Shown in pieces: positions 8,705-57,794 of a stretch of DNA of 64,000 bases (positions are counted from its first letter, which is position 1; each line of letters starts with the position of its first letter). The translations under genes were made by a program, and so were the position numbers. Under the pieces are notes generated by a model. The model did not search any database and had not been told where the DNA came from. It saw only the letters and a list, made by a program, of their open reading frames with translations. This stretch comes from a virus. The DNA lies in the IMG/VR virus record IMGVR_UViG_3300050821_009835, positions 62,001 through 126,000 of that record. One strand, 5' to 3'.

Positions 8705-8716
8705 GAGGAATTAGAG

Positions 8717-9748: not shown

Positions 9749-9791
9749 AATTCAAACAAAAGTAAAAATTCAAATAAAAACGGAGATTAAA

Positions 9792-11624: not shown

Positions 11625-11628
11625 GACC

Positions 11629-12414: not shown

Positions 12415-12416
12415 CA

Positions 12417-14229: not shown

Positions 14230-14231
14230 TA

Positions 14232-14584
14232 ATGGACATCACGCTCAAGACCGATATTCCCGGCTTCGTGCTAAATCTTCATACAGAAAATGGCAAAGGT
14301 GTCTTATCCTGGATGAAGGATAGAGAAGCACTGATTCGCATGTTTCTCCAATCCAGAAGCTGTTGAGATTCTAGAAAGAGAATTTCGGGCAGATTTAATA
14401 ACGCAATGACAAGAAAATTTGGGGAACCACCGAAGTCCCAGATCTCACTGAGATTGTCTGTATATTTCATGGTAAGCAAGGTAAAAACGCCTTAACCCTA
14501 TTTGTCCCTGGTGAAATCTGTATACATGGAGCAATGATTCCCTACTGTTGCGATATTATGGCAACTTGTACTTGCAAATCATGA
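14232..14584 (+). pseudogene. Small gene broken by two frameshifts
   Basis: The ATG at 14232 opens MDITLKTDIPGFVLNL... and stops after 44 codons at 14364. Reading continues sensibly in a second frame (FSNPEAVEILEREF...LITQ, to about 14409), then in a third frame (DKKIWGTTEVPDLTE..., 14408-14584). Removing one base at GTTTC near 14342 and one at CAAT near 14406 would restore a single protein of about 116 residues. The restored stop (14582-14584) overlaps the ATG of the next small gene in the ATGA form typical of this region, which supports the reconstruction. Both changes are single extra bases in short homopolymers, so they could be assembly errors or a real decayed gene. Product unrecognised. 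Confidence 0.55.
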
Positions 14585-14685
14585 AAAACGACCTTGATCC
14601 CTTCCATAGAATCTATGGAACATCAGGTGTCCGTCCAATCCCCTTCGAGGAAGAGTCTAAGATTGTGGAATCTTCAAAAAGTTGA
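14581..14685 (+). CDS. 34-aa hypothetical miniprotein
   Basis: It starts MKNDLDPFHRIYG at an ATG overlapping the restored stop of the frameshifted gene and ends at TGA 14683-14685. It is charged with no membrane segment. The overlap with the reconstructed frame is the main support. Confidence 0.35.
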   Translation: MKNDLDPFHRIYGTSGVRPIPFEEESKIVESSKS

Positions 14686-14713
14686 CTCCGCAACCCAAAT
14701 AGAGGGCTGCTAA

Positions 14714-15421
14714 ATGAATTCACGAATCGCCAAGAAATCACCTGAAGAATCCAGATTCACTCAAATGATGACCGCTCAAGGATGGATGCTTACGGGTGGC
14801 AATAATGTGTGGTTGATCTTCAAGAAAAAGGGCGTGCCTGGCGAGATAGTTGTCACTCGTGGAACTAAAGAATGGGCTTATGATCGTTCTGAAGATGTAG
14901 ACGCTGATCCAGCAGCACAGGGTAAAGGTTTTCAATCTCTGCAAAAGGCTCTACCCACAATTCAGAAAGCCAAAGCTATACACGCTGATTTGGAAGATGA
15001 GGAGACCAATCCTCTTCCTGCTCCTTTTAGGCGAGAAGGACCTAACGTGCAACGCATTACGGGGACAGATCACCAAGGACATGCACAGTTGGGCGATGCT
15101 CAAAATGTTTTAAACTTCCTCCAAGCTAATGGCCCAAAACTCCCACAGCAAGTAGCCGAAGCATTCGGATGGTCGTATGAACAAGCCTATGGGATGCTAG
15201 AACACCTGCGTGCTGAGGGTAAGATAGGCATTAAGCAGATGCGCTATTACGTCAAGCAGGCCAGTCGGTTCCGTTTTAAAAGCAAGATCCTTTACCGCAA
15301 AACCAAGCCAGTCAGCATATTCCAGAGTGAGAACAAAACGATAAAAGAGGGCGGTCCGCAAGGCGACGACATCTCTCGCAAATCTGACGGCGATTACCCT
15401 AAAATGCGTCGCTCACGGTAG
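14714..15421 (+). CDS. Hypothetical protein with winged-helix-like domain
   Basis: The ATG follows an AGAGGG site. In the 235-aa product, residues about 130-180 (NVLNFLQANG, then QQVAEAFGWSYEQAYGMLEHLRAEGKI) read as a winged helix, where a short helix-turn-helix is followed by a basic wing (GIKQMRYYVK). The N-terminal 100 residues (QGWMLTGGNNVWLIFKKKG) form a separate small alpha/beta domain. The C-terminal 45 residues are basic and probably disordered. A DNA-binding regulator is the most likely role; targets are unknown. Confidence 0.6.
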   Translation: MNSRIAKKSPEESRFTQMMTAQGWMLTGGNNVWLIFKKKGVPGEIVVTRGTKEWAYDRSEDVDADPAAQGKGFQSLQKALPTIQKAKAIHADLEDEETNPLPAPFRREGPNVQRITGTDHQGHAQLGDAQNVLNFLQANGPKLPQQVAEAFGWSYEQAYGMLEHLRAEGKIGIKQMRYYVKQASRFRFKSKILYRKTKPVSIFQSENKTIKEGGPQGDDISRKSDGDYPKMRRSR

Positions 15422-23483: not shown

Positions 23484-25616
23484 TTAAGATTCGAAATCGC
23501 TTTGCACGCCCGTAACTTCATTACTCAAAGGTTCATCTCCATTACGAATAAAATTCCAACGAGTGTAACGATCCGGGACTGGATAATTCTTAGCACGTAA
23601 TGCTTGAAGCGAAGGTCGATCCGTAAACCTCACCATACGTCCGTCAGAAAACTTAACCATCCAGGTTTTGGTTTTCTCTTTGGATTGACAGAGATAGATA
23701 GCCATATCAGCTCCAACGAATCCTTCAGGGAAGTACATATCTGTACCGACTGAGATACTCTTAGGAATCCCGTCGGCAACCTCATAACGCAGATCGTTGT
23801 CAGTCTCCACTGCTACGGCATCGGTAAACTCCGGGGTTTCTGCACTAGAACCCTTCATCATCTGAAACAGCTTATTACGAAAATTATTCCCCAACGATAA
23901 TGTTCCTGAGGGTTTACCACGTTGGTCGTAAACCACCACATACAATGGCTTCGGTTGTGTCTTCAGGGAACGCGACTTGTACTGACGGATAACGCGAGCC
24001 ACATCTCCCAAATCGTTCTTATCGGGCTTCTTAGTGAGAAGTTCCAAATGACGATAGGCGGGTGCCCGCTGGATGAGTTTGCCGGAGCCAGCATATTTGC
24101 GAGTCACCACATGAGCCTGAGGATATTCCCGTTCAAAAGCTGAAACAACTTGAGACAAAAACTCTTCATCTCCAGTCCACCACTGACCTTCAGAACTTTC
24201 ACCAATTGTAATTAAACCGGAAGGAGATATTCTAGCATCTCCTCGAGGAATGCTATCAAACATCCCACCAGAAGTGGGCAAACCCAGTTTTGAGAACCAC
24301 GCTACGTGGCCGAATCGCTTATTCAAATCTGCATTTTTAAAAATCTCAACCTGGCCATTGACAATTGCCCATAGATCGTACCGATTCAATGCTCCCGTGA
24401 CCACTCGCTTTTGTGTCTCGTCGATAAAACTGATGGGCATCTTGAAGGTGCCCTCATAAGTCTTGATCGTCGGATCTCGGCTGACATCGGAAAACTGAGA
24501 CTGAGTGTCCGACTCATTGGTCATGTCTTTGTAGCACTGGAGCACAGCTGCATACAGTTTCACGATCACGTCTTGTTCATACTCCATAGACAACATGAAG
24601 CTGGAAACCTCGTCTAGTAATGCTCGAATTCCCTCGGTGACCATCTCCTGCATGCCCTGAGGATTGTCCTCAACACAGGGGAACTTCAGAGTAAACACTG
24701 TGAAATTGGGGATACCAAGATCCAACTGGAGAGTAACTTCCGGTCGTTCAGCTCGAACGATTGTGATGTTTAGTTCTCCGTTCATCGAGGATAGATAAGC
24801 TGTTTTTGAAGCTACTTTAGTTAATGGAATCTCAGTTGCCCAATTTTCCACTGCACCACCTACTTGTACGGCTTTCACTTTGTCAATCTTCCATGCCTTA
24901 ACAGGATGAACAGCTCCTCTGTGGGCAAGATGAGCGCCGTTTTCTAACAGCCACTTAGACAAATTCTTTGATAGATATTTTTGAAGCTTCTTGCCCACTT
25001 GAGATTGTACAGCAGCTTCTTCTAAACGACGACGCTGTCCTTCTGTCATTTTGTTAGCTAGATAGTCCAATTCCCACTTGATATCATCCGGTGTTTCTGG
25101 TCTATTGACAGGTTGGGCATTTACAATTTGGTCTTTACGTCCATCCAAAAGATATTGCCAAGACTTACGCTGTGCTTCTGTTCCAAGTCCTTTTTTAAGC
25201 TTCTCTTCAAGTTCTTGCTTCTGACGTATATCATCAGTGTATTTTATACGCCAGTACAGCGCCTCGCCTATACTATCCTCATCTGGCACTACATCTCCTA
25301 AAAGATCAGAGCCATTTATAGCAAAAATATAGCCAAATGGATCCTTACCTTCTATGAACTTTGTAGATTTAGATCCAAACATCGAACCGCCCAATGCATA
25401 AATCGCTGCATAACCAAAATTATCTGTCATGTACACCCTGTCCGGCACAGGTGCTTGCATGGCTCGACTCTTTGCTTTCTCAGGCATAGTGATTTCACGA
25501 GGTTGAATACCCTCTGCCATAATTTTTTGCGCTAGATCTTCACGGTCGGTCCCATGATAATATACACGAGCCTTCGCTTCATCGTGGATGGGTGCAGCAT
25601 GTTTTTCCATATGCAT
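23484..25616 (-). CDS. Polyvalent protein with ADP-ribosyltransferase-like N terminus
   Basis: The 710-aa protein starts at ATG 25616, overlapping the upstream TGA. Residues 19-75 read as the start of an ADP-ribosyltransferase-like fold: YYHGT, a loop of about 40 residues, then RVYMTDNFGYAAIYAL. The C-terminal part of that domain (HPVKAWKIDKVKAVQV) ends near 250. A K-T-A tripeptide in VASKTAYLSS (about 271) separates it from a second region of 440 residues that I do not recognise. That region has mixed strands and a few signatures such as ISPSGLITIGESSEGQWWTG. ART domains in phage virion proteins are thought to modify host targets after ejection. It lies within the tail block, which fits packaging in the particle. 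Confidence 0.7.
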   Translation of the reverse strand: MHMEKHAAPIHDEAKARVYYHGTDREDLAQKIMAEGIQPREITMPEKAKSRAMQAPVPDRVYMTDNFGYAAIYALGGSMFGSKSTKFIEGKDPFGYIFAINGSDLLGDVVPDEDSIGEALYWRIKYTDDIRQKQELEEKLKKGLGTEAQRKSWQYLLDGRKDQIVNAQPVNRPETPDDIKWELDYLANKMTEGQRRRLEEAAVQSQVGKKLQKYLSKNLSKWLLENGAHLAHRGAVHPVKAWKIDKVKAVQVGGAVENWATEIPLTKVASKTAYLSSMNGELNITIVRAERPEVTLQLDLGIPNFTVFTLKFPCVEDNPQGMQEMVTEGIRALLDEVSSFMLSMEYEQDVIVKLYAAVLQCYKDMTNESDTQSQFSDVSRDPTIKTYEGTFKMPISFIDETQKRVVTGALNRYDLWAIVNGQVEIFKNADLNKRFGHVAWFSKLGLPTSGGMFDSIPRGDARISPSGLITIGESSEGQWWTGDEEFLSQVVSAFEREYPQAHVVTRKYAGSGKLIQRAPAYRHLELLTKKPDKNDLGDVARVIRQYKSRSLKTQPKPLYVVVYDQRGKPSGTLSLGNNFRNKLFQMMKGSSAETPEFTDAVAVETDNDLRYEVADGIPKSISVGTDMYFPEGFVGADMAIYLCQSKEKTKTWMVKFSDGRMVRFTDRPSLQALRAKNYPVPDRYTRWNFIRNGDEPLSNEVTGVQSDFES

Positions 25617-27550
25617 CAATTCATTTCTAGACCCTGAAATACATCTGAAGAAATCTCCCAGGCAAGACGTAAACGTGGGGCAACCAGCCCGTTCGGATGA
25701 TTGATATCCCAGTTACTTACTTCTCCCGTTGGAGGCAGCGGCTCCGTAATACTTGGTGTACCCGGCTGAAGCAGCATAATCCATCTATACGAAGGAATAT
25801 AGGCTTGACCAATACCAACCATCCGCCAAGTCAACGTTCCATCTGTAGTCGTGCCATTGACATTGATAGCCCAAGCTGAGACTGAAGCACTGCCGGGGTC
25901 AACTTCAAATTCCCCGTCTACATTGTTCAGCGTAATTGATTCATCAGTAGAAGCCAAACAGGAAAAGACGCCGTTGTTACCAGGATTTGTGAAACCTGTA
26001 ATCGTGAATGTTCTCCCCAGATAGGCATTGTCGCCCCCGCCTGTGATATTACCTAAATAAGTTGTGCTGCCGTTAAACTCCACTTGGCCCTGAGATGATG
26101 TCAATGTGAAATTAAGCGTAGGTGGATTCGGGGTGGAACCAGTCATACCATAGTACCCGCTGGTTCCAAACAACGATGGCGGACTATTCGAGCCTGTGCC
26201 AACGACCATCTGAGTGTTCCCATTTGAATCCATGATGATCTGGCTTTCAAAGAAATTTGTGTCAGGTGCCCAATTTGCTATTCCGAGAACATAGTCTCCG
26301 TTCAAGCCAGGTACATAGGCTGATTGTAGTGTTGGAGTTACAAGCCCAGATCCGGCTTCTGCCGCAGAAGGAACGGGAGCGGGCAATTGCACAACCATCT
26401 TAAATGTTCCCGAGTACGGCGGGTTGCCCACAGAAGGAGGATTACCTGTTCGGATCGTAGTCGTATCGCTGATCTTACCTGTGATATCGAATATGTTCCC
26501 ACCATTTACGCAGCCTGTAATAGTGACTTGCATGCCATCATGGATTGCATAATTAGCATTTGTGTACGTAAAAGTTGCTAAAGTTTCAGTTGCAACCGTG
26601 TTAACAATATTGAACGTGATTTCCGGCAAAGTTACCCATTGGGATTCTGGTATACTCATAAGCGGACCAGAGAATTGGCGTCCGTGAGCGGCAACTGTTG
26701 TTTGAGGATTCACGGGGTTCAAAATAGGAGCTACAATCAACATCGGGTTGAATGGTGGTTCTTCAACAATCCTAAAGATAATCGATAAATTGTCTGCAAT
26801 TCCTGGCTCAGTGGGAGACCACATATCCTGCGGAAAGTAACTAATGTCTTCCGTGTAGGCATCAATGTTATCGTTTTCGCCGAATACTACAATGAATTCA
26901 AGCCCCACATGGGCGGGTTTAGTCAAATCAATGGCTGTATACAATGAACTAACAACCAGCTGAAGCTGATTGAGAGACTCTATGTCTTCCAGCGGATTGC
27001 TTCCGCCCACATTGATAGAAACTTGTATTGCATTACGATCAGACTGATCGTACGGGCTGGGGGGCGGTAATAGAGTTGAGGCATCAGAAGGGATAAATTT
27101 GTAAAGCTCTTGCACAACCACTACAAGGCCAGTGTATGCAAAGATGACATCTTGAATCGCCTTGACCGTAGCACCTTCTTTGTAGGCTTGAAGTAGGGCG
27201 ACAAGCATGTTACGATAGGATAAATCAGATTGTCCGTCCGGGAGATCGAAGACCCCAGTTGAAGGATAAGCACTACTGATAAACAGCGGGTCAGCCCAGC
27301 GACGTTTAATGTCAGATGGAGTTAAATACTGAGGATTTTTAGCGATTAGATCGTAAGCATAGAAATACTCGCATCTAGCAATTTCTTGCGCTACAGCACG
27401 AAGAGCCACGCCCCATATAGATTGATCGTTCCTAGTGGCATAAAAATTGGCCGTGTTGTTGAAGAGGCGTCGAGTACTAGCATCTTCATACAATAAAAGA
27501 TCAGTTCTGTTCGGGGTGTATAAGACATCAGGTTGAACGTATTTAGTCAT
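25616..27550 (-). CDS. Large tail/baseplate structural protein
   Basis: The 644-aa product starts MTKYVQPDVLYTPNRTDLL at the ATG overlapping the GIY-YIG gene stop (TAATG). The N-terminal 230 residues (ARCEYFYAYDLI, LTPSDIKRRWADPLF, EGATVKAIQDVIFAYTG) look like the helical region of baseplate wedge-type proteins adjoining protein J. The rest is beta-rich, with Gly/Asn/Thr repeats and FTITGFTNPGNNGVFS-type strands found in tail appendages. The neighbouring J-like gene supports a baseplate or tail-fibre-connector role. A diverged copy of its first 16 codons sits upstream of the GIY-YIG gene. Confidence 0.6.
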   Translation of the reverse strand: MTKYVQPDVLYTPNRTDLLLYEDASTRRLFNNTANFYATRNDQSIWGVALRAVAQEIARCEYFYAYDLIAKNPQYLTPSDIKRRWADPLFISSAYPSTGVFDLPDGQSDLSYRNMLVALLQAYKEGATVKAIQDVIFAYTGLVVVVQELYKFIPSDASTLLPPPSPYDQSDRNAIQVSINVGGSNPLEDIESLNQLQLVVSSLYTAIDLTKPAHVGLEFIVVFGENDNIDAYTEDISYFPQDMWSPTEPGIADNLSIIFRIVEEPPFNPMLIVAPILNPVNPQTTVAAHGRQFSGPLMSIPESQWVTLPEITFNIVNTVATETLATFTYTNANYAIHDGMQVTITGCVNGGNIFDITGKISDTTTIRTGNPPSVGNPPYSGTFKMVVQLPAPVPSAAEAGSGLVTPTLQSAYVPGLNGDYVLGIANWAPDTNFFESQIIMDSNGNTQMVVGTGSNSPPSLFGTSGYYGMTGSTPNPPTLNFTLTSSQGQVEFNGSTTYLGNITGGGDNAYLGRTFTITGFTNPGNNGVFSCLASTDESITLNNVDGEFEVDPGSASVSAWAINVNGTTTDGTLTWRMVGIGQAYIPSYRWIMLLQPGTPSITEPLPPTGEVSNWDINHPNGLVAPRLRLAWEISSDVFQGLEMN

Positions 27551-28191
27551 TAGGATCTCCCCATGACCCAACCATCTGCACTGTGGCTTTCTATGTCCCC
27601 CGGTTTTATCAATAGACTGAAAATGCCATTATTGACCCATTTTCTTCCAAGAATAGGGTTTTTTCGACGACTGTTACCAAGACCGATTTTTCGTCCGTGT
27701 TCAGCAGTTTTGGGAATTCCTTTGAATCTTTTCTTGGCTATAGCAGCCCGCTCTTTTCGAAGATGAGGATTTTTAGCCCACCATTTTGTTTGTCCCTCTC
27801 TTATTTTTTGACAGAATTCTTCTGATCTTGGAATATCAGTTAAGGCAGTACGAATTTTCTGCTTGGATAATTCAGTATGGGAACGCCCCGCAAAACTGGG
27901 GATATCCTCACCTCCCATTGTTATGTTGTATCCAATCTCTCTGTCATACGACTGATGAAGAACGATAAAAAAGGTTTCCATCGCGCAGAGCTCTTTAAAA
28001 CTACCCGCTTTGTGTAATGTTTCTGTTCTAAACCCTTCTGGCCCATAAAATCGCAAGGCTTGATAAAAATAACCAGGAGTGCCAATTCGTGCGCAACATT
28101 GGTGCTCTTTCCAACGAGTCTCTTCAGATTTAGTTGTCCTGCCAATATACACCTTGCCGTTAATCACGTTTGTTATCTTATATATTAGCAT
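27550..28191 (-). CDS. GIY-YIG homing endonuclease
   Basis: The 213-aa protein opens with a GIY-YIG nuclease domain: IYKITNVINGKVYIGRTTKS, with the catalytic Arg in RWKEH, F/Y at ALRFYG and the Glu in CAMETFF (position about 74). The rest carries helical DNA-binding modules (HTELSKQKIRTALTD, EFCQKIREGQTKWW, TAEHGRKIGLGN) of the kind seen in Seg and Tev-type enzymes. AGGGGG six to seven bases before the ATG acts as ribosome site. It lies between the J-like gene and the next tail gene and probably entered as a free-standing mobile gene. Confidence 0.9.
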   Translation of the reverse strand: MLIYKITNVINGKVYIGRTTKSEETRWKEHQCCARIGTPGYFYQALRFYGPEGFRTETLHKAGSFKELCAMETFFIVLHQSYDREIGYNITMGGEDIPSFAGRSHTELSKQKIRTALTDIPRSEEFCQKIREGQTKWWAKNPHLRKERAAIAKKRFKGIPKTAEHGRKIGLGNSRRKNPILGRKWVNNGIFSLLIKPGDIESHSADGWVMGRS

Positions 28192-45118: not shown

Positions 45119-45143
45119 CGGCGAATAGAAACTCTATTCGCCG
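45119..45143. terminator. Eleven-base perfect hairpin at the convergence point
   Basis: CGGCGAATAGA, loop AAC, TCTATTCGCCG. It overlaps the stop codon of the minus-strand gene. There is no T-run on either side, so it may block read-through only partly. Confidence 0.45.
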
Positions 45144-45499
45144 TAATCATCAGTAAAACCTTCTGGGATTGGAGGCATAGGAATCGTTTGATCCTTCATT
45201 GAATGAGTACAATCTCCCTGATAAGCAATCATACCATTGGTCACAATGTAATGACAGGTGAACGGGATTGTGTGGCCAGCAGCATCACGTTCCCACTCTC
45301 CAGTCCAAACCCCATCTTTCCATTGACGTTTAAAACCAGACTGGCGAAAACTAGGAGTAAATGTGGGATTTTCTAGGTCTCCATTGAACTTCCAACTATC
45401 AGGGAGAGGATGCATTTCTCCACAGGCAGGACACCAATGAAAATAACCTTCTGAACAACAGCCTGCTGCGCGTCGAAGTTTGCTACTGACCTGCCCCAC
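45134..45499 (-). CDS. Small zinc-binding phage protein (DUF6527-like)
   Basis: The 121-aa protein starts at GTG 45499 overlapping the upstream stop (TAGTG). Pattern: HWCPACGEMHPL, SWKFNGDLENPTFTPSF, FTCHYIVTNGMIAYQGDCTHSMKDQT. Phage proteins with this C-P-x-C-G ... N-G-D ... P-T-F-x-P-S ... D-C-x-H order are common and often listed as DUF6527 or misleadingly as ammonia monooxygenase. They probably bind a metal. It ends the minus-strand effector block. Confidence 0.6.
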   Translation of the reverse strand: MGQVSSKLRRAAGCCSEGYFHWCPACGEMHPLPDSWKFNGDLENPTFTPSFRQSGFKRQWKDGVWTGEWERDAAGHTIPFTCHYIVTNGMIAYQGDCTHSMKDQTIPMPPIPEGFTDDYGE

Positions 45500-45915
45500 T
45501 AGCGACCCCCGTTTCCCACAACACGTTTTACAGCCATCTTTCCATGACGAGCTAGAGCGGTGTTTAAAGCCGGGGTCTCTCCTTTATTAAATCCTCCAGC
45601 TCCATCCCCAAGAGTACGACCTGAGGATGGCTGATATATAGAAGGCCCGCGTAAGCCACTGCCACCACCTGCGGAACCAAACTCAAATTCTTCGCTTGCA
45701 CCTGAAATTTCTCCCAGCGGGCCTACTGAGCCATACTGAAATTTCGGGGTGTCGGCACGTTTGATGCGGGTAGCCCCGACGCCCCCAGATGTCTCCAGCC
45801 CAACCTCGAGAGCAGCTTCCACTTCATCTGCAGTGGCAATTTCCTCTGCTTGGATGGCAACTGTATCCGCCCAATTGATTGCTTTACGGCCTGCGAGAGA
45901 AGAATGTTTGCGCAT
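45499..45915 (-). CDS. Hypothetical glycine-rich protein, 138 aa
   Basis: Starts MRKHSSLAGRKAIN eight bases after the polyvalent gene stop. A helical N-terminal 50 residues (TVAIQAEEIATADEVEAAL) is followed by a low-complexity Gly/Ser-rich half (FEFGSAGGGSGLRGPS, TLGDGAGGFNKG) and a basic end. The order resembles phage head or connector decoration proteins, but that is only a guess. Confidence 0.5.
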   Translation of the reverse strand: MRKHSSLAGRKAINWADTVAIQAEEIATADEVEAALEVGLETSGGVGATRIKRADTPKFQYGSVGPLGEISGASEEFEFGSAGGGSGLRGPSIYQPSSGRTLGDGAGGFNKGETPALNTALARHGKMAVKRVVGNGGR

Positions 45916-45923
45916 ACTAGAGG

Positions 45924-48900
45924 TTAGAAATTAAGGAGATCAGCCTGCTTCAGTGCTTTCAGAATCGCATCAGCATTCGGCGGTAGAGTAACAATTAAAG
46001 TGCCTTCGTCGTTTCCAGTCATATAGACTTTTCCATCTTTCTCTCTAAGGCGTGGGTCAAAGATGTGATAATCGTCAGCAGCATCTATCCCTTTACCTGT
46101 GCTCGGGAAGAACACATACTTGAATGTATCTACAGTAATGAAAGCCCAAGGGGATAAAGTGTCTTTCTGCCCAGTAGAGGGAATACTAATCGTTGCAACC
46201 TGCTTGGCCAAGCTGACCGGGAGATAAACTCTACCCGACTTAGACATGAAATAGAGAAACTCCTGGTCCGGATGCTCTTTCAAATAAGTACCCACCTGCT
46301 GAGCCTCTTGTTCTGCTCCCTTGCTATACCGTTTTTGAGCTTTTTCTTTTCCCACAGCAGGTAGTATCTCCATACCCGCCTGTTCAATTTCAGACAATGG
46401 CACAACTATACCGCCCGAGCTTTGATATTGGAGAGTATAGCTACCTGCAGGAAGTGTCACTACTTGAGCAGAGTAAGTTCGGCGAGTGATGCTAGACCCT
46501 GTTTGTAGAAGAACTGGAACAGGCTGAGTAATCTTTATCTTGGTGCGAGGAAGAGCGGCGTCTGGCACCTGATTTAATCTTTTTCCAATTTCATCTGTGT
46601 ATGAGACAAACGTGCTCTTCTCTTTCGAGATAGTTGGTAGAGGGAGTCCCGCATATTGTTCAGCCGTTATCTGTTCAATGTTTGGAGACCACATTAAACC
46701 GGAACCAGCCTTGTATTTGTATGGTTTCAGATCTACCCCCAATGCAGAAGCCTGTTTTTCAAATTCAGCCATCCAAGAAGGATTAGGTAACCCATAGAGT
46801 TGTAAACCCGCTAGCATACTAGATCTACGGATTTGTTGCTCATCCACAGCTGCTTTGTAGAACGAGAATGAAGCTGTTTTTCCGACCTCCTTGAACAGTT
46901 TCGGGTCCCAGAACACTTTGTGCTGATCTTTGTATTTTCCAGTGTTCACGCATTCCGTCTTACCTGGGCCTTCCGTATGGGATACAACTGTTTCTGCAAC
47001 GGGAGTACCATCAAAAGTAAAAACGAGCTTCTCCCCTGGCAAGCAGACGATGGGATGACGGAACGCCCAGAATTCTAGATTACCTTCAGGCGGTTCTTCC
47101 CAAAAATGTTCACGAGACGCCTTGGGAACTTCGATCTTGAAAGAGCGTTTCGTCATCCGCCCTGCCTTTTTAGAAGACTCCTTCGCGAGTTCCGCAGGAT
47201 CTAGATCCAACTTAAAAATCTCCACATGATCCGGCGTGAAGACTACACCCGGGATCTTCTTCCAGCTGTAACCGCCCCCGGTTTCATAGACGTTATGCGG
47301 AATGTCCACAGCATAAACTTCTTTACCGAACTCATTGTCCATGTAGACTATGACATAAGCATGATCATCACCCGGTTGTCCGCCTTCGGTCACGCTGCAC
47401 TCAATCGGGACCCGATCATAGACGACCCCGGTTATGGCCTGAGCGATCTCGTCACAGATTCCACCTGTTCCGTTCTCAGGATCCTCACCTGCTTCATTCT
47501 GGTCCCAAGCATCATAGATCTTCTGCGCTTCCGCTGCCATCTCCAGTGTAGCTTCTTGCAAGTAGTGAAGAAGCACAGTCCGGTTACGGGTGGCGGTATG
47601 CTCAAGGCATCCTCCGGACAGGCAAGCGACGCAGACCTTCGCAGCGATCCGAGAAGATGCGGCAGTCTTATGAGACAGAAACTTCTGCCACTCCACGCCA
47701 AATTCCTGAAGTGGGAGATTATCCGGCAGCTCTGTTAGCCAAAGATACAGAGCAACCGGGTCGACGTCCTTGGGCTTGATCACGTCATAGTGGTTGTCCA
47801 TGACACGAATGAGGCCGTTCTTGAGAGAAAGTCCGACGACGTTACCGAAAGTCACGCGCTGAAGTTCTCTATCAATGTCCGCGTTTGCAGTTTTGGAAGC
47901 ACTAAATTTTACAAATGCCTTATCCTGAATCTGCCTACCGTAAGCAATATCGTCCAGTATAGCACCGTCGTAACCTTGTTTCTGGAGTACCCGAACCAAC
48001 TGACTCACTTCCGTGCCGTGAAGATTGCTATCGAAAATCGAGGCAGGCGTATTCATCTCATTGTTAATGCCCAATTTAGAAGCTTCCGCTACGATGACAT
48101 CCCAAGGTGCAGGATTACTAATGGATATTTCTCCCTCGTTTAATTGCCCGCCCGTTCCGAAACGATCATTGTACATCTCAACATAGGACTCTGCCATTTC
48201 CTTGTTAGGAGTCCAATAAGTCACGGCCCCGCCTGGTTTGCTGTTGCCTCCGTTATACATCTTTGAAGCAATTTTGGACGCCAAGGTTAAGCTGTAATCC
48301 TTCTGCCCATGCGTTGCGCTGGGTGTCTCTTCAACTGGATGAGTCTTTTTCAAATCCTCCCAAATCTTTCCAGATTCTCCAATGCGATAGTTGGCTGGAC
48401 TCTCTACTTTCTTGACACCGTGTTCTTTGAGAAAGTCAAACCCCATCCTATAGAGGTAGGAGCCATATCCCTGCCGACGAAAATCGTATTCAACCCAAAC
48501 ATTATGGACAGCTGCGACAGTCCCTGGAGAATACACAATAAATTGAATCTTGCCAATGTAGACGCCCTGGAGATTTTTAGCCTCGAATGTATGGATTATT
48601 GCCCCAGACTTGACTCCAGCCTCTTTCTCAGTATGCTCAATCTGAATTTCTGAAGGATTTGCCGGCGCGGTTGCAGTTTTTCTGGTTCCAATGTATGCTT
48701 GGATGGTTTTATCACCGCGCATCTTAGCCGCATCCCGACGATGATAGCCGTCAACGACGTATTTATTGCTGCCAATAACGATTGGGGGTAGCGCGGTCTT
48801 GCGTTGCGAGTATCCCCAAGCCACTGGAGGATGTTTACCCTGCCCCCAATGGATGCTGGGATCATTAATATCTATGGTCTGAAGAACGTACTCATCTGCT

Positions 48901-51374
48901 TCAGCTATCCATTCTGGATCTTCAAATGGTTTTCGTTCCCACCCCTTTTTATGGAGAGAGTTAACATACTCGAGCATTCCATCGGGGGTTAATAAACTTG
49001 GATATCGTTCATCGTTCTCCTTAGCTCGTTTGTTTTCTTTGCGCCCCCAAATTTCGATCGGCAGATTCCTTCCGATTATCAAAGCCGCTATAGCACGATG
49101 TTGTCCATTCAAAATAACCAAACGACCATCCTTTAACCGAGAAACAGGCACAGGCGGAGGGATGCTTCCCGCTTTCCACATATCCGCGTATTCTTGAGCT
49201 TTTTGTTTACTTCCCTCTGGGTTGTTTAATTCTTCTTGCGTATAAAGTTGACTTGGGTCCATTGAAGTCGTTTCTAGAAGTGTCAAACGACCGGCCTCAA
49301 ACTCCAACAAATCGTTGAAAGATTCATCTGTCGGCTCCATGTATTTTAAAGAATCATGACCCGAATGGAAAGCTGCTTGTTTATGACTTCCAAACGGAAC
49401 CCCATTACGCGCTCCATTGGCTCGAGAGAGCACGAGAGAGCCGCAGGAGAAGGAGATACCCTGCGCCCAATCTGACCCCTCGTACTTGTGAGCAACCTCT
49501 GGCTTCACGTAAGCGATAGTTACATGGGGTTTATAGGGAAAATCATCTTTACGATTTCCTATAGCAGAATCGACCAATTCATGGAGGACATGTAAATCTG
49601 CAGCATGAGCTTCGGCAACAATAGGAACTCCTCCGGCTTCAGATGCTGTAAAAGCATGCATTTTACCCAATACGACAGAAAAATTGTGCTGCTCACCTAC
49701 AGCCCAGGCCAGTTTTTCTAGATTCTCTTCCACACCAAACTTTACCGTAATGTGAGGATCATCTTCAATCCCCTTCACATCTAGATCCTCGGCAGGTATA
49801 CGGCGGGCTACAGCGAAGACATCGTCTCGTGCTGGACCAGATAATCCGATAATCACAAGAGGCTTCTTATCCTTGCCCAAATACTTAGCCATTCTGAGGT
49901 CGTAGCCCATCCTGCTGTTGCTGAAAGCAATTCTGACATCAGGGTATTTTTCGCGCAGACGCTCAAGAACTGGACGTATCTTAGTCTCCCCTTCAGAAGA
50001 GAAGGTGGAGATTTTCAATTCATGACGACCAGAATCTTGTACAAACTTTACAGCAGCTTCGAGTAACTGGCGAGCATACCCTCGTCCTTCATAACCTTTA
50101 CGAGTCGTGATATGCATTAACCAAAACTGATCTGGATTGTTTGGGTTAGGGTAGAGTTCACAATCTGCTACAATCTTGCCATCGTCAAGGATATCAAAAT
50201 GGGGTTCCTGACGAAGATCAGAATGACGAAGATACATTGTCTCTTCCATCAAACGGTTGTCTTCTTGCTGGAATTTGCGAATCTGTTCACCCTTCATGAA
50301 AACAGGTGGAGAGGCTGCGGTTTTAGCTGCGGTTACAGTCTTTAATTTATCGGGAGGATTTTGCCAAGCACCCCCATTTTCTTTCCACCCGATAATCGAG
50401 ACTGTAGTACCCTCTATTAAACGAATTTCTGCTTCTTCAGGGGCAGCTAGATTGCAATAAGCTGTTGCCAACCAGTCAACCTGACCTGGGACAACTGTTC
50501 CTTTAAAAACTAAAGCTGCACCCCCCATAGCATTGTAAGGCTGGGCTGCATTTTCTTCCCAAGACCAAAACTTACCGAAATTATCTGGATTTATCTGATT
50601 TATGGAAGCAGAAATAGCTCGATAAACGGGTAACCGATTTGTCCTGGCGAGCTCCTTAAGATGCTCTTCAACAGGGGCATAGGAAAGTTCTAGAAACTGC
50701 TCTGCTGCAACCTCGAGTTGCTCTTCGGGTAAGTTTTGATTGATATTATTTTCCCGAAGATACTGATGAAATTCTCCAGAAGGAATTGTATCCCAAAAAC
50801 CGCCGTAATTTAAGACTTGATCAAAGCTGGGAACACCCGAGGCTGCTTTAGATTCAATCCCAAACTCCTCGGGCATCATCAATTCAAGAGGGATAAATGA
50901 TTGAGTCCCTTTCTGCTTCTCAGGCTGATTGACATATCCGTTAGTCTCTTCTACGAAAGTTTCGTCTCGTCCGGGAGTCTGTTTGTGGGTTGCGGTCTTC
51001 CTAGATTCCCGAATAGGACTTCCCATTTCCGTTTGATAGATGTTAATCCGTTTTATCAATTCTTTAGGAATTTTCTTACCGGGGTAAACCCAAGTTACAT
51101 TATCCTCTAAAAGGACTATTCCCTCCTCCAACTTAGAAGGGTCTACAACAACGATAGCAATTTCATCAACCTCAGCATATCTGGATCCCCAATGAGCAGC
51201 ATAATCTAAATCCTCAGCGAAGTAGATCCCTCCGTTTGGGACATAAAGACCGTCGCGCTTGATTTTTTCCACATTTTCCACCGGGGTGCCATGGAAAATT
51301 TCTGGGGGGAAATACTTAGCGACGACGCCTTTTGGCGCGACACTTAGCCCCGGCTTTTGCAACAAAGGATTCAT
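45924..51374 (-). CDS. Giant multi-enzyme polyvalent protein
   Basis: The 1816-aa protein (start ATG 51374, MNPLLQKPGLS) reads as a string of enzymatic modules. In order: ADP-ribosyltransferase-like (FHGTPVENV ... GGIYFAEDLDYAAHW, 27-60); a second ART-like (VYRAIS ... PEEAEIRL, 250-320); GNAT (GYEGRGYARQLL, about 430); 2H phosphoesterase-like with HITV (541) and HVTI (617); two ParB-like segments (VILNGQHRAIAAL about 755; VVDGYHRRDAAK about 875); a second GNAT (DFRRQGYGSYLY, about 965); a third ART-like (AVTYWTPNKEMAESY ... GYDGAILDD, 1050-1142); a Cys-His-Asp hydrolase-like region (GICDEIAQ C1307, DDHAYV H1338, YAVDIP D1357); then unassigned C-terminal domains. K-T-A tripeptides occur near module borders at 126, 351, 859, 899, 1161, 1236 and 1499. 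Phage polyvalent proteins of this kind are thought to enter the host with DNA. The start overlaps the JAB gene by 59 bases. Confidence 0.8.
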   Translation of the reverse strand: MNPLLQKPGLSVAPKGVVAKYFPPEIFHGTPVENVEKIKRDGLYVPNGGIYFAEDLDYAAHWGSRYAEVDEIAIVVVDPSKLEEGIVLLEDNVTWVYPGKKIPKELIKRINIYQTEMGSPIRESRKTATHKQTPGRDETFVEETNGYVNQPEKQKGTQSFIPLELMMPEEFGIESKAASGVPSFDQVLNYGGFWDTIPSGEFHQYLRENNINQNLPEEQLEVAAEQFLELSYAPVEEHLKELARTNRLPVYRAISASINQINPDNFGKFWSWEENAAQPYNAMGGAALVFKGTVVPGQVDWLATAYCNLAAPEEAEIRLIEGTTVSIIGWKENGGAWQNPPDKLKTVTAAKTAASPPVFMKGEQIRKFQQEDNRLMEETMYLRHSDLRQEPHFDILDDGKIVADCELYPNPNNPDQFWLMHITTRKGYEGRGYARQLLEAAVKFVQDSGRHELKISTFSSEGETKIRPVLERLREKYPDVRIAFSNSRMGYDLRMAKYLGKDKKPLVIIGLSGPARDDVFAVARRIPAEDLDVKGIEDDPHITVKFGVEENLEKLAWAVGEQHNFSVVLGKMHAFTASEAGGVPIVAEAHAADLHVLHELVDSAIGNRKDDFPYKPHVTIAYVKPEVAHKYEGSDWAQGISFSCGSLVLSRANGARNGVPFGSHKQAAFHSGHDSLKYMEPTDESFNDLLEFEAGRLTLLETTSMDPSQLYTQEELNNPEGSKQKAQEYADMWKAGSIPPPVPVSRLKDGRLVILNGQHRAIAALIIGRNLPIEIWGRKENKRAKENDERYPSLLTPDGMLEYVNSLHKKGWERKPFEDPEWIAEADEYVLQTIDINDPSIHWGQGKHPPVAWGYSQRKTALPPIVIGSNKYVVDGYHRRDAAKMRGDKTIQAYIGTRKTATAPANPSEIQIEHTEKEAGVKSGAIIHTFEAKNLQGVYIGKIQFIVYSPGTVAAVHNVWVEYDFRRQGYGSYLYRMGFDFLKEHGVKKVESPANYRIGESGKIWEDLKKTHPVEETPSATHGQKDYSLTLASKIASKMYNGGNSKPGGAVTYWTPNKEMAESYVEMYNDRFGTGGQLNEGEISISNPAPWDVIVAEASKLGINNEMNTPASIFDSNLHGTEVSQLVRVLQKQGYDGAILDDIAYGRQIQDKAFVKFSASKTANADIDRELQRVTFGNVVGLSLKNGLIRVMDNHYDVIKPKDVDPVALYLWLTELPDNLPLQEFGVEWQKFLSHKTAASSRIAAKVCVACLSGGCLEHTATRNRTVLLHYLQEATLEMAAEAQKIYDAWDQNEAGEDPENGTGGICDEIAQAITGVVYDRVPIECSVTEGGQPGDDHAYVIVYMDNEFGKEVYAVDIPHNVYETGGGYSWKKIPGVVFTPDHVEIFKLDLDPAELAKESSKKAGRMTKRSFKIEVPKASREHFWEEPPEGNLEFWAFRHPIVCLPGEKLVFTFDGTPVAETVVSHTEGPGKTECVNTGKYKDQHKVFWDPKLFKEVGKTASFSFYKAAVDEQQIRRSSMLAGLQLYGLPNPSWMAEFEKQASALGVDLKPYKYKAGSGLMWSPNIEQITAEQYAGLPLPTISKEKSTFVSYTDEIGKRLNQVPDAALPRTKIKITQPVPVLLQTGSSITRRTYSAQVVTLPAGSYTLQYQSSGGIVVPLSEIEQAGMEILPAVGKEKAQKRYSKGAEQEAQQVGTYLKEHPDQEFLYFMSKSGRVYLPVSLAKQVATISIPSTGQKDTLSPWAFITVDTFKYVFFPSTGKGIDAADDYHIFDPRLREKDGKVYMTGNDEGTLIVTLPPNADAILKALKQADLLNF

Positions 51375-51861
51375 AGTTCTTCTTTCGTTCAACTGCTAAT
51401 GGACGAAGGCACGGCCAATAGCTCACAACCGTCTTCCGCCTACTACCATCTTTTGGAATTTGAATAGCACAAACAGCCAAAATCGATTCTTGCGTGTTCA
51501 AACTGTCCCGGATATCGTGTTCGCTTAAAACCGCGTCGTCGCAATCGGGGTGAGTATGAATCGTCCCCAAGAACTCGAGTTTGATTCTTCGACCAGATAC
51601 AGAGTCATAGATCTCCGTGTCCTTGGCATCATCCTCATGCCGATCTAGTTCTAGGTCTTCATCAATGCAGACTACTTTACGAGTGTTGGTTTCCTTTTTA
51701 TTGATGTCGCATTTAATGAAGGCACAAATGTACACTGTGTCTCCACGGACATAACCCCATAAAGCCGAAATGGTTTCTTTGGGGGCATAACGCAACGCTC
51801 GCCGACGAAAGCGCCCTTCTTCCCTGCCGTCAACAACGACTTTCAAGAAAGGTGCGATCAT
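51316..51861 (-). CDS. JAB/MPN-type metalloprotease
   Basis: The 181-aa protein contains FLGTIHTHPDCDDAVLSEHD, a JAMM-like zinc motif with H-x-H-P, then Ser and the terminal Asp; the spacing is one residue longer than the canonical pattern. An N-terminal Glu in APKETISALWG (about 30) can supply the catalytic acid. JAB proteases remove ubiquitin-like tags or act in phage tail assembly. The C terminus is very basic (AKCRAKRRRR) and its last 59 bases overlap the polyvalent gene. Lying between the alarmone-synthetase-like gene and the polyvalent gene, it may process or accompany the injected effectors. Confidence 0.75.
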   Translation of the reverse strand: MIAPFLKVVVDGREEGRFRRRALRYAPKETISALWGYVRGDTVYICAFIKCDINKKETNTRKVVCIDEDLELDRHEDDAKDTEIYDSVSGRRIKLEFLGTIHTHPDCDDAVLSEHDIRDSLNTQESILAVCAIQIPKDGSRRKTVVSYWPCLRPLAVERKKNYESFVAKAGAKCRAKRRRR

Positions 51862-51870
51862 CTTAGTTCC

Positions 51871-53448
51871 TTAGTTTAAAATACTATTCACCATGGTCGT
51901 TACTCGACCTTCTGTTTCGCCCCGGCGCTCACATAACTTCTGCAAGCGAGTTTTCTTTGCTTTCTTGACTTTAATCTCAAAATCCTCGCTCGCTGTAAGA
52001 TGATACCGCGCTGCAGCAAGCCTACGTTTTAAATGAGCCACTACCCCTGTTTGTAACGGGCAGCCCGTGCGACGCTCAATCTCTCCTTGCAGTTCGTCAA
52101 TGCTTGATTCGCCCGCACCAACCAATGCTCCCAGCATTTCCAGAATCTGAACTTCAGCCTCAGACAACTGGCCCATGCTCGGCTTATAGCCCAAGTCATG
52201 GTTCACCTCTTGCAAAGCATGCATCAGAATGGAAGCAGCCTGAATTTCTACAACCGTGCCCTCATACCAAACAGTATAGTGGAGTGCTCGATAAATCTGA
52301 CCGTCTTCTGGATCAGCATCGCGTGGAAATTCCTTTACGGGTCTGGCCTGTTCAAAATTTGATTCAATGATCGCTCGAACCTTTTCTTGATCATGAGGGA
52401 AATACAATGCTACACGTACCCCAGCCAGGTCCTTAATGTCTTGCTGAATTGCTGCCAAATCCTCATACTGATTTTTGTTGTTACGATTCATTAGCTTATC
52501 ACGCAAACTTCTCGTACGTTTGGCACGGCTGGTGACCAGCGCCTTAATCTTGTCTGCTTGGAATATATCCTCAAGAAACTCTTGCACCTCCAAAGCCACG
52601 TGTTCGTAAAACTCGAAATCGTAACTATCGAGGAACCGCATAATGAGCTTGGGAACACTGGCAGAAGTCTTCAAAACAGTTCCTATGGAATCTGATCCTC
52701 CATCATGCTTTAACGCTTGTCTTATTCGAGAATCAAAATTAATCGGGTATTCGGTGAGTTCGTATAATTTCTGTACCATAGCGGTTAAAACTCCCGCATG
52801 TTGTAGATCTTTTGCTACTTCATATCGACCCAATCGCGTTCTTCCAGAAATAATTGTATAGGGTAACTGTCCGGCTGTTCTCCCTTCCAACAGTGCAGTC
52901 AATACTCCCGAGGTCTTGTATTCTTCTTCTGAAATGATGTAATTCGAAAAATGCAATTTACTGATAAGTTCAGGATTATAGACACCCTTCAGATGCTGAT
53001 CTGCACCCGTCTTATTCACCTGATTTTGATTCTCTGCGACAGCGTCAAAGAGATACTTGAGAGGAATCTCGTCAATGTCCCCAAGATTCTTGTCTCCCCA
53101 CATATCGGTGTAGCATTTCTCTGCGCTCAAGAGATCCGGGAAGCCAAGGAACACTTTGTATTCGTCAAATTCACCTTTATCGTCAAGTTGTTCAACAGCA
53201 TAGGCATATTCAGCCGATTCATCTTCTCCGACATACACATCCACTGGTTCTTGATCCCCGGATCCAGAAGTGGCGGGAATATATCCATAATCTGCCAACA
53301 TTTCTTTCTCCCAATGAGTTCCATCGGGTAAATCTCCCTCTCGAATTCCTCCCTTTGGGGTTTCGATGATTATCGGCAGCCCCTGGTAAGAAGACGGTCG
53401 ATTAACGTCTCCGCTTGCTCTCTTAAGGAATGTAGCAGTCAAACTCAT
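51871..53448 (-). CDS. InPase-like domain fused to RelA/SpoT-type synthetase
   Basis: In this 525-aa protein, residues 18-135 have the phage InPase-like pattern (IIIETPKGG, ADYGYIPAT, EPVDVYVGE, YKVFLGFPDLLSAEKCY) known from polyvalent proteins. Residues 300-425 match RelA/SpoT nucleotidyltransferases: basic KRTRSLRDKLM, DLAGVRVALY (D340 for Mg), YRALHYTVW, VEIQAAS (E401), MHALQEVNHDLGYK (H410, H417, Y421, K422). Such domains make (p)ppGpp or, in toxic small alarmone synthetases, (p)ppApp or pyrophosphorylated tRNA. The key residues are present, so activity is likely, but the product is open. A K-T-S-A tetrapeptide at about 260 separates the halves. A separate HD hydrolase at 15434 could neutralise it. 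Confidence 0.82.
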   Translation of the reverse strand: MSLTATFLKRASGDVNRPSSYQGLPIIIETPKGGIREGDLPDGTHWEKEMLADYGYIPATSGSGDQEPVDVYVGEDESAEYAYAVEQLDDKGEFDEYKVFLGFPDLLSAEKCYTDMWGDKNLGDIDEIPLKYLFDAVAENQNQVNKTGADQHLKGVYNPELISKLHFSNYIISEEEYKTSGVLTALLEGRTAGQLPYTIISGRTRLGRYEVAKDLQHAGVLTAMVQKLYELTEYPINFDSRIRQALKHDGGSDSIGTVLKTSASVPKLIMRFLDSYDFEFYEHVALEVQEFLEDIFQADKIKALVTSRAKRTRSLRDKLMNRNNKNQYEDLAAIQQDIKDLAGVRVALYFPHDQEKVRAIIESNFEQARPVKEFPRDADPEDGQIYRALHYTVWYEGTVVEIQAASILMHALQEVNHDLGYKPSMGQLSEAEVQILEMLGALVGAGESSIDELQGEIERRTGCPLQTGVVAHLKRRLAAARYHLTASEDFEIKVKKAKKTRLQKLCERRGETEGRVTTMVNSILN

Positions 53449-55298: not shown

Positions 55299-56018
55299 AT
55301 GAGCACTTTTCAGATTATTAGATACGGTGCTGATCCCAGCGAAAACCCCACACCTAGTGAAAATCCCAGCCTAGACATTCCCAGCCTAGATTTAAACCAT
55401 TGGCTCCGACGCTATGAAACTGATAGCGTAGAGGGTAAACGTTCTGTACAAGAATGGGCGGCGGAATACAAGAAGTTTCCAGCGGATCGTAAAGACTCAA
55501 TAAACAAGGAAGTTCTTAAACAATGGGGGACTCTACCATTCTATGGCGATCACTGTTTTGGTCTCATCGTAGATGGCGAAACCGTTAGTTATTTTACTGC
55601 TCGATTCAGTTCAAAGAAATCCAAAAACGCTTGGGGGCGGTATATCGTTTGGCATTTCGCGTACACTCCTGAGGTATATCGTCGTCGAGGATATGCTTCG
55701 CAATTAGGGATAAATATCCAAAATCTAGCTCACGCCTGGGGATACAAACGGGTTAAATCGATTTGCCAAACTTACCTTGGGTTCCGTTTGCATTTGTCGT
55801 TGGGCCAGGATTTCTGGGGGATGGATAAAAAGAATGGAACTTTAGTTGTAGATGCAGCTTTGAGTCCAAAAGACGAATTCCCAGACGGCATCCCTATAGA
55901 AGCCCGTGCAGCAATAGGAGCACACAAACTTAACAATCAAGAGTTAACCAATATCCTGCTTGCGCACCCCTATTCAATATCGCCTCAAGAACTGGCAACT
56001 GTTCCTTGGCAAACTTAA
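55299..56018 (+). CDS. GNAT-like acetyltransferase
   Basis: The 239-aa product has an N-terminal Pro/Ser-rich linker with a repeated SENPxxxP and SLDIPSLDL, then a GNAT fold: VSYFTARFSS, YIVWHFAYTPEVYRRRGYASQLG, where R/Q-x-x-G-Y/x-A is the acetyl-CoA pyrophosphate loop. Targets are unknown. The last 60 residues (PIEARAAIGAHKLNNQEL) may form an interaction tail. It follows the A1-like gene by 12 bases, so the two are probably expressed together early in infection. Confidence 0.7.
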   Translation: MSTFQIIRYGADPSENPTPSENPSLDIPSLDLNHWLRRYETDSVEGKRSVQEWAAEYKKFPADRKDSINKEVLKQWGTLPFYGDHCFGLIVDGETVSYFTARFSSKKSKNAWGRYIVWHFAYTPEVYRRRGYASQLGINIQNLAHAWGYKRVKSICQTYLGFRLHLSLGQDFWGMDKKNGTLVVDAALSPKDEFPDGIPIEARAAIGAHKLNNQELTNILLAHPYSISPQELATVPWQT

Positions 56019-57293: not shown

Positions 57294-57794
57294 TTAAAGA
57301 GTTTTTGTCATGATCACAGCAGACTTGCCTTTATCGTACCAGTCTTTTTCAAAACCAGTGATACGATAGCCTAGTTTGAAATACATCAACTGCGCAGGAT
57401 TTTCTGTGTAGACTTCGAGTCGAAGCGTTTTAATCCCGCGCATTTCATAATATTGCTCACAAGCAGTGATTAAACGGGTTGCATATCCTCGACCCCGGTA
57501 ATTTTCTGGGACTTCAACAGTGAGGATACAAGCTTTACCACGAAAAACCTTGGCAATAAGGAAACCCACGATGCGGTTTAAACGCTGGGTAGTTTGGATA
57601 GAACCAAAACTACGAGGCGTGATTATATTTTCAACAAACTCATCTTCTATAATCCAAACGTTGTTTCTGTTTAATTGTGAAGTGAATTCAGTTTTGCTCC
57701 AACGAAACGGCGGCTTGAAACATTCTTTCTCCATTTCATAGAGAAGAGGAATTTCCTGTTGACAAAATTCGTTTTTAATGCGAGGATTGTCCAT
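57294..57794 (-). CDS. GNAT acetyltransferase (RimI-like)
   Basis: The 166-aa product has GNAT motifs: IVGFLIAKVF, CILTVEVPENYRGRGYATRLI (acetyl-CoA loop R-G-x-G-Y/A), LRLEVYTENPAQLMYFKLGYRITG. This is the order of RimI-type N-acetyltransferases that modify protein N termini or small molecules. The PPFRWSKTEF segment near residue 30 is also typical. It ends the minus-strand helicase operon. The substrate cannot be predicted. Confidence 0.85.
   Translation of the reverse strand: MDNPRIKNEFCQQEIPLLYEMEKECFKPPFRWSKTEFTSQLNRNNVWIIEDEFVENIITPRSFGSIQTTQRLNRIVGFLIAKVFRGKACILTVEVPENYRGRGYATRLITACEQYYEMRGIKTLRLEVYTENPAQLMYFKLGYRITGFEKDWYDKGKSAVIMTKTL

Follow-up and report, generated by a model that had tools for sequence, protein, structure and literature searches.

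The DNA analysed here, called the window throughout, is a 64,000-nucleotide stretch (positions 62001-126000) of the 264,912-base virus record IMGVR_UViG_3300050821_009835 (G000), and its minus strand carries the gene of a very long polyvalent protein, a phage chain that joins several domains of disparate activity. The frame is uninterrupted from 51392 to 45924 (1,822 codons counted from a TTG). The ATG at 51374 is the likely start, because a related open reading frame (ORF) in locus L001 opens with the identical residues MNPLL; the resulting single frame of 1,816 residues is that reported in an earlier note on this DNA. Residue numbers count from the TTG (subtract 6 for ATG numbering). L-numbers denote fetched loci or contigs with relatives, and ORFs were called mechanically (345, compared to 350 annotated, for the isolated jumbo phage Tunturiibacter phage Tunturi_5). 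The features of the locus are listed in Table 1.

Table 1. Features at the polyvalent protein locus (window coordinates; an arrow marks the putative cut)
Feature	Position	Strand	Basis or remark
Polyvalent polyprotein gene	45924..51374	minus	1,816 aa from ATG; in-frame TTG 18 bases upstream
ART-1, KptA/PARP-like, aa 7-131	51000..51374	minus	Weak profile matches
Putative cut site KTA↓T, ART-1/seg126	50991..50999	minus	Motif
Conserved ~52-aa segment seg126, aa 132-183, flanked by KTA and KAA	50841..50999	minus	Recurrence
Putative cut site KAA↓S, seg126/ART-2	50841..50849	minus	Motif
ART-2	50325..50840	minus	AlphaFold, second structural comparison, homologues
Putative cut site KTA↓A, ART-2/GNAT-1	50316..50324	minus	Motif
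GNAT-1	49869..50315	minus	Pfam PF00583
2H phosphoesterase, HITV/HVTI	49371..49868	minus	Pfam PF13563, alignment
Weaker putative site KQA↓A, 2H/ParB-1	49374..49382	minus	KTA here in 6/8 relatives listed
ParB-like 1	49023..49370	minus	phrog_1033 8.4e-12
ParB-like 2	48681..49022	minus	Weak; contains one KTA
Putative cut site KTA↓T, ParB-2/GNAT-2	48672..48680	minus	Motif
GNAT-2	48276..48671	minus	Second PF00583 stretch in Pfam; profile
Putative cut site KIA↓S, GNAT-2/ART-3	48267..48275	minus	Motif
ART-3, ART-PolyVal-like	47895..48266	minus	Homologues in L001, L181; PF18760 on L181
Putative cut site KTA↓N, ART-3/75-aa domain	47886..47894	minus	Motif
Conserved 75-aa domain, aa 1170-1241	47670..47885	minus	70-72% identity in L001, L180
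Putative cut site KTA↓A, 75-aa domain/Cys module	47661..47669	minus	Motif
Cys-His-Asp, papain/transglutaminase-like module	47175..47588	minus	Invariant residues; relatives; structural comparison
Small beta domain, aa 1410-1504	46881..47165	minus	Homologues; weak rows PilZ-type (Z 4.8), ASCH-type YqfB (Z 4.1)
Putative cut site KTA↓S, beta domain/C-terminus	46872..46880	minus	Motif
Putative cut site KAA↓V, C-terminus	46848..46856	minus	Motif
307-aa C-terminal region	45927..46847	minus	No assignment to family
JAB/JAMM metalloprotease-like gene	51316..51861	minus	Upstream neighbour overlapping polyprotein gene start; Pfam PF14464 3.2e-6; HTHP...S..D
InPase + RelA/SpoT protein, 525 aa, syntenic partner	51871..53448	minus	Pfam; no K[TSAVI]A

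The earlier note had read the chain as a phage polyvalent protein with ADP-ribosyltransferase (ART), GNAT, 2H and ParB domains, which was right, and its nine enzyme-like modules were recovered mostly as described. The two GNATs, the 2H domain and the first ParB (Table 1) have profile support: PF00583 matched the polyprotein with 1.4e-15 over two stretches, one for each GNAT, and the 2H block matched PF13563 (4e-6), kept both HxT motifs intact and recurred in 27 to 30 other distinct sequences. Matches were weak for ART-1 (phrog_5470, RNA 2'-phosphotransferase, 3.7e-4; PF01885, 0.034), for the second ParB (phrog_26754, 0.083; 28% identity to a segment of Tunturi_5 gp224) and for the Cys-His-Asp module. 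In the latter, the Cys, His and Asp residues were invariant across four aligned homologues, and relatives occurred at 31 loci; no convincing family match was obtained in Pfam or PHROG profile searches, and in a structural comparison the thiol-protease and transglutaminase rows (Z of at most 4.6) ranked under unrelated rows at 5.0 to 5.5. ART-2 gave no match in profile searches, PHROGs included. Its AlphaFold model had a pLDDT of mostly 85 to 96, and the top rows of a second structural comparison were ADP-ribosylating toxins, with Z values up to 7.4, below the caution level of 8 (rmsd 3.1, 95 residues aligned). Foldseek of both AlphaFold models (ART-2 and the Cys/beta region) found no match at E<=0.001, and PDB sequence searches with the Cys-module alignment, the ART-2 alignment and the whole chain found none either. 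The ART-3 homologue of L181 matched ART-PolyVal (PF18760, 1.3e-4, below the family cut-off); the homologous stretch in L001 gave no profile match. Several segments thus have enzyme support, so that the counterargument formulated in advance, an absence of enzyme folds from most segments, does not apply as worded. Beyond the nine modules we delimited the ~52-residue segment seg126 (132-183), the 75-residue domain (1170-1241), the beta domain (1410-1504) and the 307-residue C-terminus, for which neither a homologue in the fetched loci nor a PHROG match was found. Two mixed-fragment alignments were left unused: A8 misplaced ART-2 fragments on the 2H region, and the low identities of A5 suggest the same fault.

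The linkers of the chain carry a recurrent tripeptide. KTA occurred 7 times in the polyprotein compared to 0.53 expected (none of 5,000 shuffles reached 7), and six of the seven lay at module borders; the wider pattern K[TSAVI]A occurred 10 times versus 3.3 expected (p 0.002). Were the chain cut at every K[TSAVI]A and nowhere else, it would fall into pieces of 128, 50, 175, 508, 40, 135, 127, 75, 263, 8 and 307 residues. The 508-residue piece runs from GNAT-1 through 2H and ParB-1 into most of ParB-2, since the borders between them hold only KQA or nothing. KTA was also among the most over-represented short patterns in L180, L236, L114 and L292. Among all 400 patterns of the form X[TSAVI]Z, K[TSAVI]A ranked first in 31 polyvalent proteins of the family (122 versus 56.8 expected), whereas it ranked 31st in 30 polyvalent proteins of other phages (92 versus 79.8). 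A search for other repeated motifs in long polyvalent proteins gave nothing clear outside the family.

Of 260 borders of BLAST homology blocks, 79 fell near the motif, compared to a mean of 32.5 and a maximum of 53 in 2,000 shifts. A border test based on profiles from the window protein was circular, since these profiles had been cut at the motif, and was not relied on. It was replaced by domain seeds trimmed by 20 residues (10 of 11 were then motif-free; seed ParB2 retains one), which were searched again, and by shuffles within the 40-residue flanks. Counted over 28 proteins of the family, with the two from the window among them, K[TSAVI]A occurred 53 times in 4,057 flank residues and 3 times in 6,972 core residues; without the window polyprotein, the counts were 45 in 3,605 and 2 in 6,241. 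Shuffling within flanks (300 rounds) gave a mean of 12.9 and a maximum of 24, and the reversed pattern A[TSAVI]K was seen 18 times against 12.7 after shuffling. The order of the residues mattered: KTA was found 31 times (2.2 after shuffling), AKT 6 times, TAK 3 times, and ATK, TKA and KAT not once. The motif was present in 11 of 15 short inter-domain gaps. The flanks of the corresponding modules in 29 polyvalent proteins from other phages showed no excess (K[TSAVI]A 6 versus 8.0 shuffled). In the comparison of homologous blocks between relatives, 221 proteins were reduced to 163, and identical starts were removed in the flank-shuffle, confirmed-kin and E-value-rank tests.

The family list had been fixed, by search route and identity, after the motif counts were known, and the test was therefore repeated on sets ranked by E-value; a selection effect in the list is possible, and the cut ranks of the new sets were themselves placed afterwards, at drops in E-value. 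The first 14 rows of the InPase scan held 30 K[TSAVI]A versus 7.9 shuffled (KTA 16 versus 1.2), and the other 39 rows held 7 versus 5.7. In the 2H scan, the first 7 rows gave 18 versus 4.0 and the other 25 rows 4 versus 6.3, while the 31 rows of the Cys-module scan gave 11 versus 4.3 (maximum 12). Tunturi_5 alone reached 7 versus 1.5 (maximum 6) and the window's two proteins 8 versus 1.8 (maximum 6); the loci carrying the major capsid protein (MCP) or gp329 reached merely 2 versus 0.8, over eight flanks. With confirmed kin only, K[TSAVI]A was counted 26 times versus 7.7 and KTA 17 times versus 1.2, and 18 versus 5.8 K[TSAVI]A were left after removal of the window's two proteins. The InPase-RelA joints in these sets are mutually homologous and hence not fully independent.

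The kin in question are relatives of Tunturi_5, a phage isolated on the soil bacterium Tunturiibacter psychrotolerans X4BP1, in which the JAB, InPase and polyvalent genes are also adjacent (gp271-gp272-gp273). This phage and record G000 have in common the portal (50% identity), sheath, baseplate and tail genes, and the window genes around the polyprotein are homologues of Tunturi_5 tail and baseplate genes. The window phage is therefore a distant relative of this Acidobacteriota jumbo phage, and we infer an acidobacterial host. Among the 15 family loci, L181, L183, L187 and L189 have a portal on the contig, and L185, L186, L114, L099, L263 and L177 (the last via L188, which has identical ORFs) go with contigs giving MCP or gp329 matches. 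Four of the other 26 contigs checked for a portal had a distant match (21-43%).

The same motif was met in the head proteins of this lineage. The PHROG profile matched by Tunturi_5 gp331 (phrog_18299, 3.8e-13) is named 'head maturation protease', and gp334 matched a PHROG family for the major head protein; Pfam searches with nine Tunturi_5-type proteins gave a match for gp272 alone. Relatives of the protease were reached via gp329 and the MCP (62 proteases, reduced to 41 anchored tails, 36 unique and 28 dereplicated). Their C-terminal tail is hypervariable, yet 23 of the 28 dereplicated tails contained K[ATSIVM]AS (shuffle mean 0.47, maximum 3 in 500 shuffles). Herpesvirus assemblin, distant kin of the prohead proteases, would cut at x-A↓S, a consensus that could not be confirmed. 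In an alignment of 63 proteases, K-x-A was found within the first 14 residues in 58 of 59, at positions 28-42 in 57 of 60 and in the C-terminal tail in 58 of 63, and K[TSAVI]A in the 176-residue core in 9 of 63, with patterns slightly varied and looser for the tails (M allowed for K in the C-tail) than for the core. All six family portals carried K-[T/V/I]-A within about one residue of one aligned place, where a variable N-terminal tail meets the conserved portal. The MCP N-termini held K[ST]A[AG]G in 44 of 45 listed of 57, a weak indication since the entire N-terminus is conserved. Across the Tunturi_5 genome, K[TSAVIQEM]A[SA] was seen 89 times versus 32.4 expected. Among the proteins listed, those with at least three such motifs (gp328, gp350, gp348, gp205, gp332, gp225, gp321 and gp345) were either polyvalent proteins or encoded by genes whose annotation places them in the virion region or close to it, and in 11 head and polyvalent proteins, picked after the genome-wide motif listing, K[TSAVI]A[SA] reached 6.6 times its expectation. 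At single joints of Tunturi_5 chains the motif reads KTAA after the InPase of gp272 and KTAN after the 2H module of gp321.

A Tunturi_5-type protease and a polyvalent protein lay on the same contig in two of the four contigs searched (L181 and L263). In L114 and L099, but not in L118 and L120, the polyvalent gene (1,689 and 1,480 residues) directly precedes the protease gene; on its other side stands a homologue of the virion gene gp329. Packaging of the protein, as proposed in the earlier note, thus received indirect support from this gene order and from a motif in common with head proteins. The L114 and L099 polyvalent proteins (9935-15004 and 8716-13158, respectively) are otherwise different and share a stretch of about 70 residues rich in 'GTGEESPAN...GTEPES', which is perhaps another packaging tag. 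The other candidate, at the level of a guess from its distribution, is seg126: this segment was found once per chain in eight otherwise differing polyvalent proteins (the window's counted) and also C-terminally in Tunturi_5 gp273.

Since the motif of the head protease and portal recurs in many joints of the polyprotein, the chain is probably cleaved in the head, before injection, to give individual enzymes. K-x-A as the cleavage motif is inferred from the protease tails and portals. The explanation that we consider the most probable on this comparative evidence is that of a packaged polyprotein: the prohead protease would cleave it behind K-x-A, the products would be injected as individual enzymes, and the cut sites would be the places where cassettes are swapped. 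The chain would enter the prohead, and there the protease would treat it as it would treat itself and further head proteins, with a cut behind K-x-A. Roughly ten pieces would be freed (ART-1, a 50-residue piece, ART-2, the GNAT-2H-ParB block, GNAT-2, ART-3, the 75-residue domain, the Cys/beta block and the C-terminal piece). They would exit together with the DNA and, soon after infection, each attack its own targets among host proteins, RNA and nucleotides. As parts of a single chain the enzymes would be supplied in equal amounts on one packaging ticket, and cassettes could be added or swapped at an already cleavable site. The suggestion of a packaged multi-tool that works as one molecule was therefore probably wrong in form, as the recurrent K-x-A linkers point to separate enzymes. 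We hold a wider version only tentatively, at somewhat less than even chances: the whole lineage of soil jumbo phages would store injected effectors as true polyproteins, which the head-maturation protease, and no embedded peptidase, would cut after K-x-A in the prohead into a dozen or so enzymes. The code would then provide standard cassette borders, so that effectors could be gained, lost or reordered and still be packaged, and the ~52-residue segment would be an excised packaging tag.

Relatives held blocks homologous to the window in other orders and neighbourhoods, which indicates recombination. L001 split the homologous modules over three ORFs of 558, 1,164 and 352 residues, and its 2H and ART-3 blocks (61% and 59% identical to those of the window) were in a different ORF from the block matching 126-194. 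L001 and L177 have a GNAT inserted between InPase and RelA, which the others join directly. Further long multi-module frames were L181 (2,240 residues), L263 (2,839), L236 (1,453) and Tunturi_5 gp273 and gp321, and a 992-residue protein of L182 held 7 motifs.

Polyvalent proteins, their likeness to polyproteins and trimming by prohead proteases are already known, and what would be new is the putative mode of processing. Passages of Iyer et al. 2017 (PMC5512222) describe disparate enzyme domains in phage chains thought to be injected, compare them to the polyproteins of RNA viruses and suggest that embedded zincin peptidases, a common though not obligatory element of such chains, process them. 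The window chain resembles the polyvalent proteins described there in its ART, GNAT, 2H and ParB domains, and InPase and RelA/SpoT are among the known domains; unlike the zincin-bearing chains in the same passages, it gave no match to a zinc-peptidase (zincin-like) profile, and its linker motif matches head protease tails instead. In phage SPN3US, as part of PMC10052503 reports, the prohead protease gp245 matures head proteins, the portal and itself at AxE, with Ser favoured after the cut, and strips its own C-terminal propeptide and the long N-terminal propeptide of the portal. The AxE cuts described there remove propeptides, whereas K-x-A in the window lineage lies between folded modules. 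Likewise, DarA of phage P1, an injected protein of the head that counters restriction and is trimmed by the prohead protease, loses only an N-terminal fragment of about 9 kDa according to a passage of PMC12810830, in contrast to the putative sites between modules of the window chain. Tunturi_5 gp273 and gp321 (PP885688; PMC11924767, in its relevant part) have the identical motif and modules related to those of the window, gp273 within the gp271-gp273 cluster; their module sets differ, and the annotation reads MutT/NUDIX hydrolase. Our searches of the open-licence PMC literature turned up no account of polyvalent proteins with prohead-protease sites between their enzyme modules. How a very long polyvalent protein gets out of the head and then works as several enzymes becomes, with this proposal, a question that can be put to an isolated soil phage. 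If the proposal is true, the protease motif at module borders would be a readable code from which injected enzymes and their precise termini could be predicted, and tailed phages would employ polyprotein processing by their general head protease.

Several observations weigh against cleavage by the head protease. The GNAT-1/2H and ParB-1/ParB-2 borders lack the motif, 2H/ParB-1 has KQA and Cys/beta KKA, one KTA falls within ParB-2, and the neighbouring InPase-RelA protein is free of K[TSAVI]A (K-R-A-S lies close to its N-terminus and R-T-A-G in the linker); the code is therefore looser than written, or some joints stay uncut. Across the family, 4 of the 15 inter-domain gaps lack the motif. A[TSAVI]K is also more frequent in flanks than in cores (4.44 versus 1.29 per 1,000 residues), and E[..]A, K[..]G and A[..]K are two- to 3.5-fold higher in flanks, so that linker composition explains part of the excess; the control patterns R[..]A and D[..]A showed no clear difference. 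K[..]G was slightly raised at BLAST-block borders as well (21 versus 14.6). K[TSAVI]A[SA] was enriched 2.2-fold in the other 334 Tunturi_5 proteins, gp345, gp348 and gp350 among them. Three more distant portals (37-42% identity) had no site or had it elsewhere, and the protease ORF called in L114, at 192 residues, is short and motif-free. Kinship is unconfirmed for five family contigs (L001, L180, L182, L184/L262 and L236). The head protease of the window phage itself is not on the record, which stops (263113-264912) just past the gp329 homologue, where Tunturi_5 carries the protease, scaffold-like and MCP genes; a search of record G000 with the Tunturi_5 MCP and protease gave no match. Finally, the known prohead substrates in the cited passages (PMC10052503, PMC12810830) lose propeptides and are not split into modules.

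Some of these points would fit an ordinary polyvalent protein that is packaged and injected intact, K-x-A being a favoured flexible linker or a scaffold-docking motif. Part of PMC12810830 lists P1 DarB, of about 2000 residues, with the Dar head proteins, some window borders lack the motif, and the control patterns indicate that linkers are generally rich in K and A. We nevertheless regard this as unlikely: the signal depends on residue order, the excess is absent from these modules in more distant phages, and the motif also stands in protease tails and at the edges of portal tails, places that are cleaved in another jumbo phage. That a different peptidase cuts the chain, namely the upstream JAB protein, the zinc-peptidase module of relatives or the chain's own Cys module, would agree with the overlap of the JAB gene with the polyprotein start and its HTHP...S..D signature, with the zinc-peptidase modules in relatives and with the embedded metallopeptidases proposed in passages of Iyer et al. 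(PMC5512222). This is quite unlikely, given that no JAB was found in the fetched loci of L001, L181, L182, L184, L186, L187 and L189, although the 992-residue L182 protein has its 7 motifs (a JAB may lie elsewhere in those genomes), that the JAMM Ser is replaced by Gly in L180 and L183, that record G000 gave no zinc-peptidase match (in a search without a positive control) and that the motif sits in the head protease's own tails.

It is very improbable that K-x-A is a recombination joint at which identity of the linker DNA drives cassette exchange, with the peptide as a by-product. Homology blocks do end near the motif, and 10 pooled proteins used 18 distinct KTA 9-mers at 46 sites compared to 23.6 by pooled codon usage (P 0.0035), a deficit that may merely reflect codon usage differing between genomes; however, the window's seven KTA sites use six different 9-mers with unlike flanks, and the motif recurs in proteases and portals. 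An assembly artefact that fuses separate genes has next to no chance of accounting for the frame. The earlier note had raised this doubt, which the three ORFs of L001 would favour; against it, the frame is open in this record, long multi-module single frames were found in L181, L263 and L236, and gp273 and gp321 come from an isolated phage. Assembly fusion, a JAB or zinc peptidase as the chief cutter and a DNA-level recombination joint were accordingly rejected as the main explanation.

The JAB/JAMM-like gene stood beside polyvalent genes in several relatives, gp271 being its Tunturi_5 counterpart. Downstream of the polyprotein gene, a 138-residue protein (45499-45915, minus strand) has a look-alike after the L001 polyvalent ORFs (13310-13897) and may be a partner of the locus; a DUF6527/phrog_3362 protein (45134-45499, minus strand) closes the same gene run. 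Two single GNAT-like proteins were noted near the locus, one by profile (57294-57794, minus strand) and another by eye (55299-56018, plus strand). A GIY-YIG-like ORF, also seen by eye, lies between tail genes (27550-28191, minus strand) and is possibly a homing endonuclease. A 711-residue protein (23484-25619, minus strand) has ~44% identity over 274 residues to Tunturi_5 gp205, which is annotated as an ADP-ribosyltransferase; it contains KVASKTAY, from which it may also be a substrate of the head protease.

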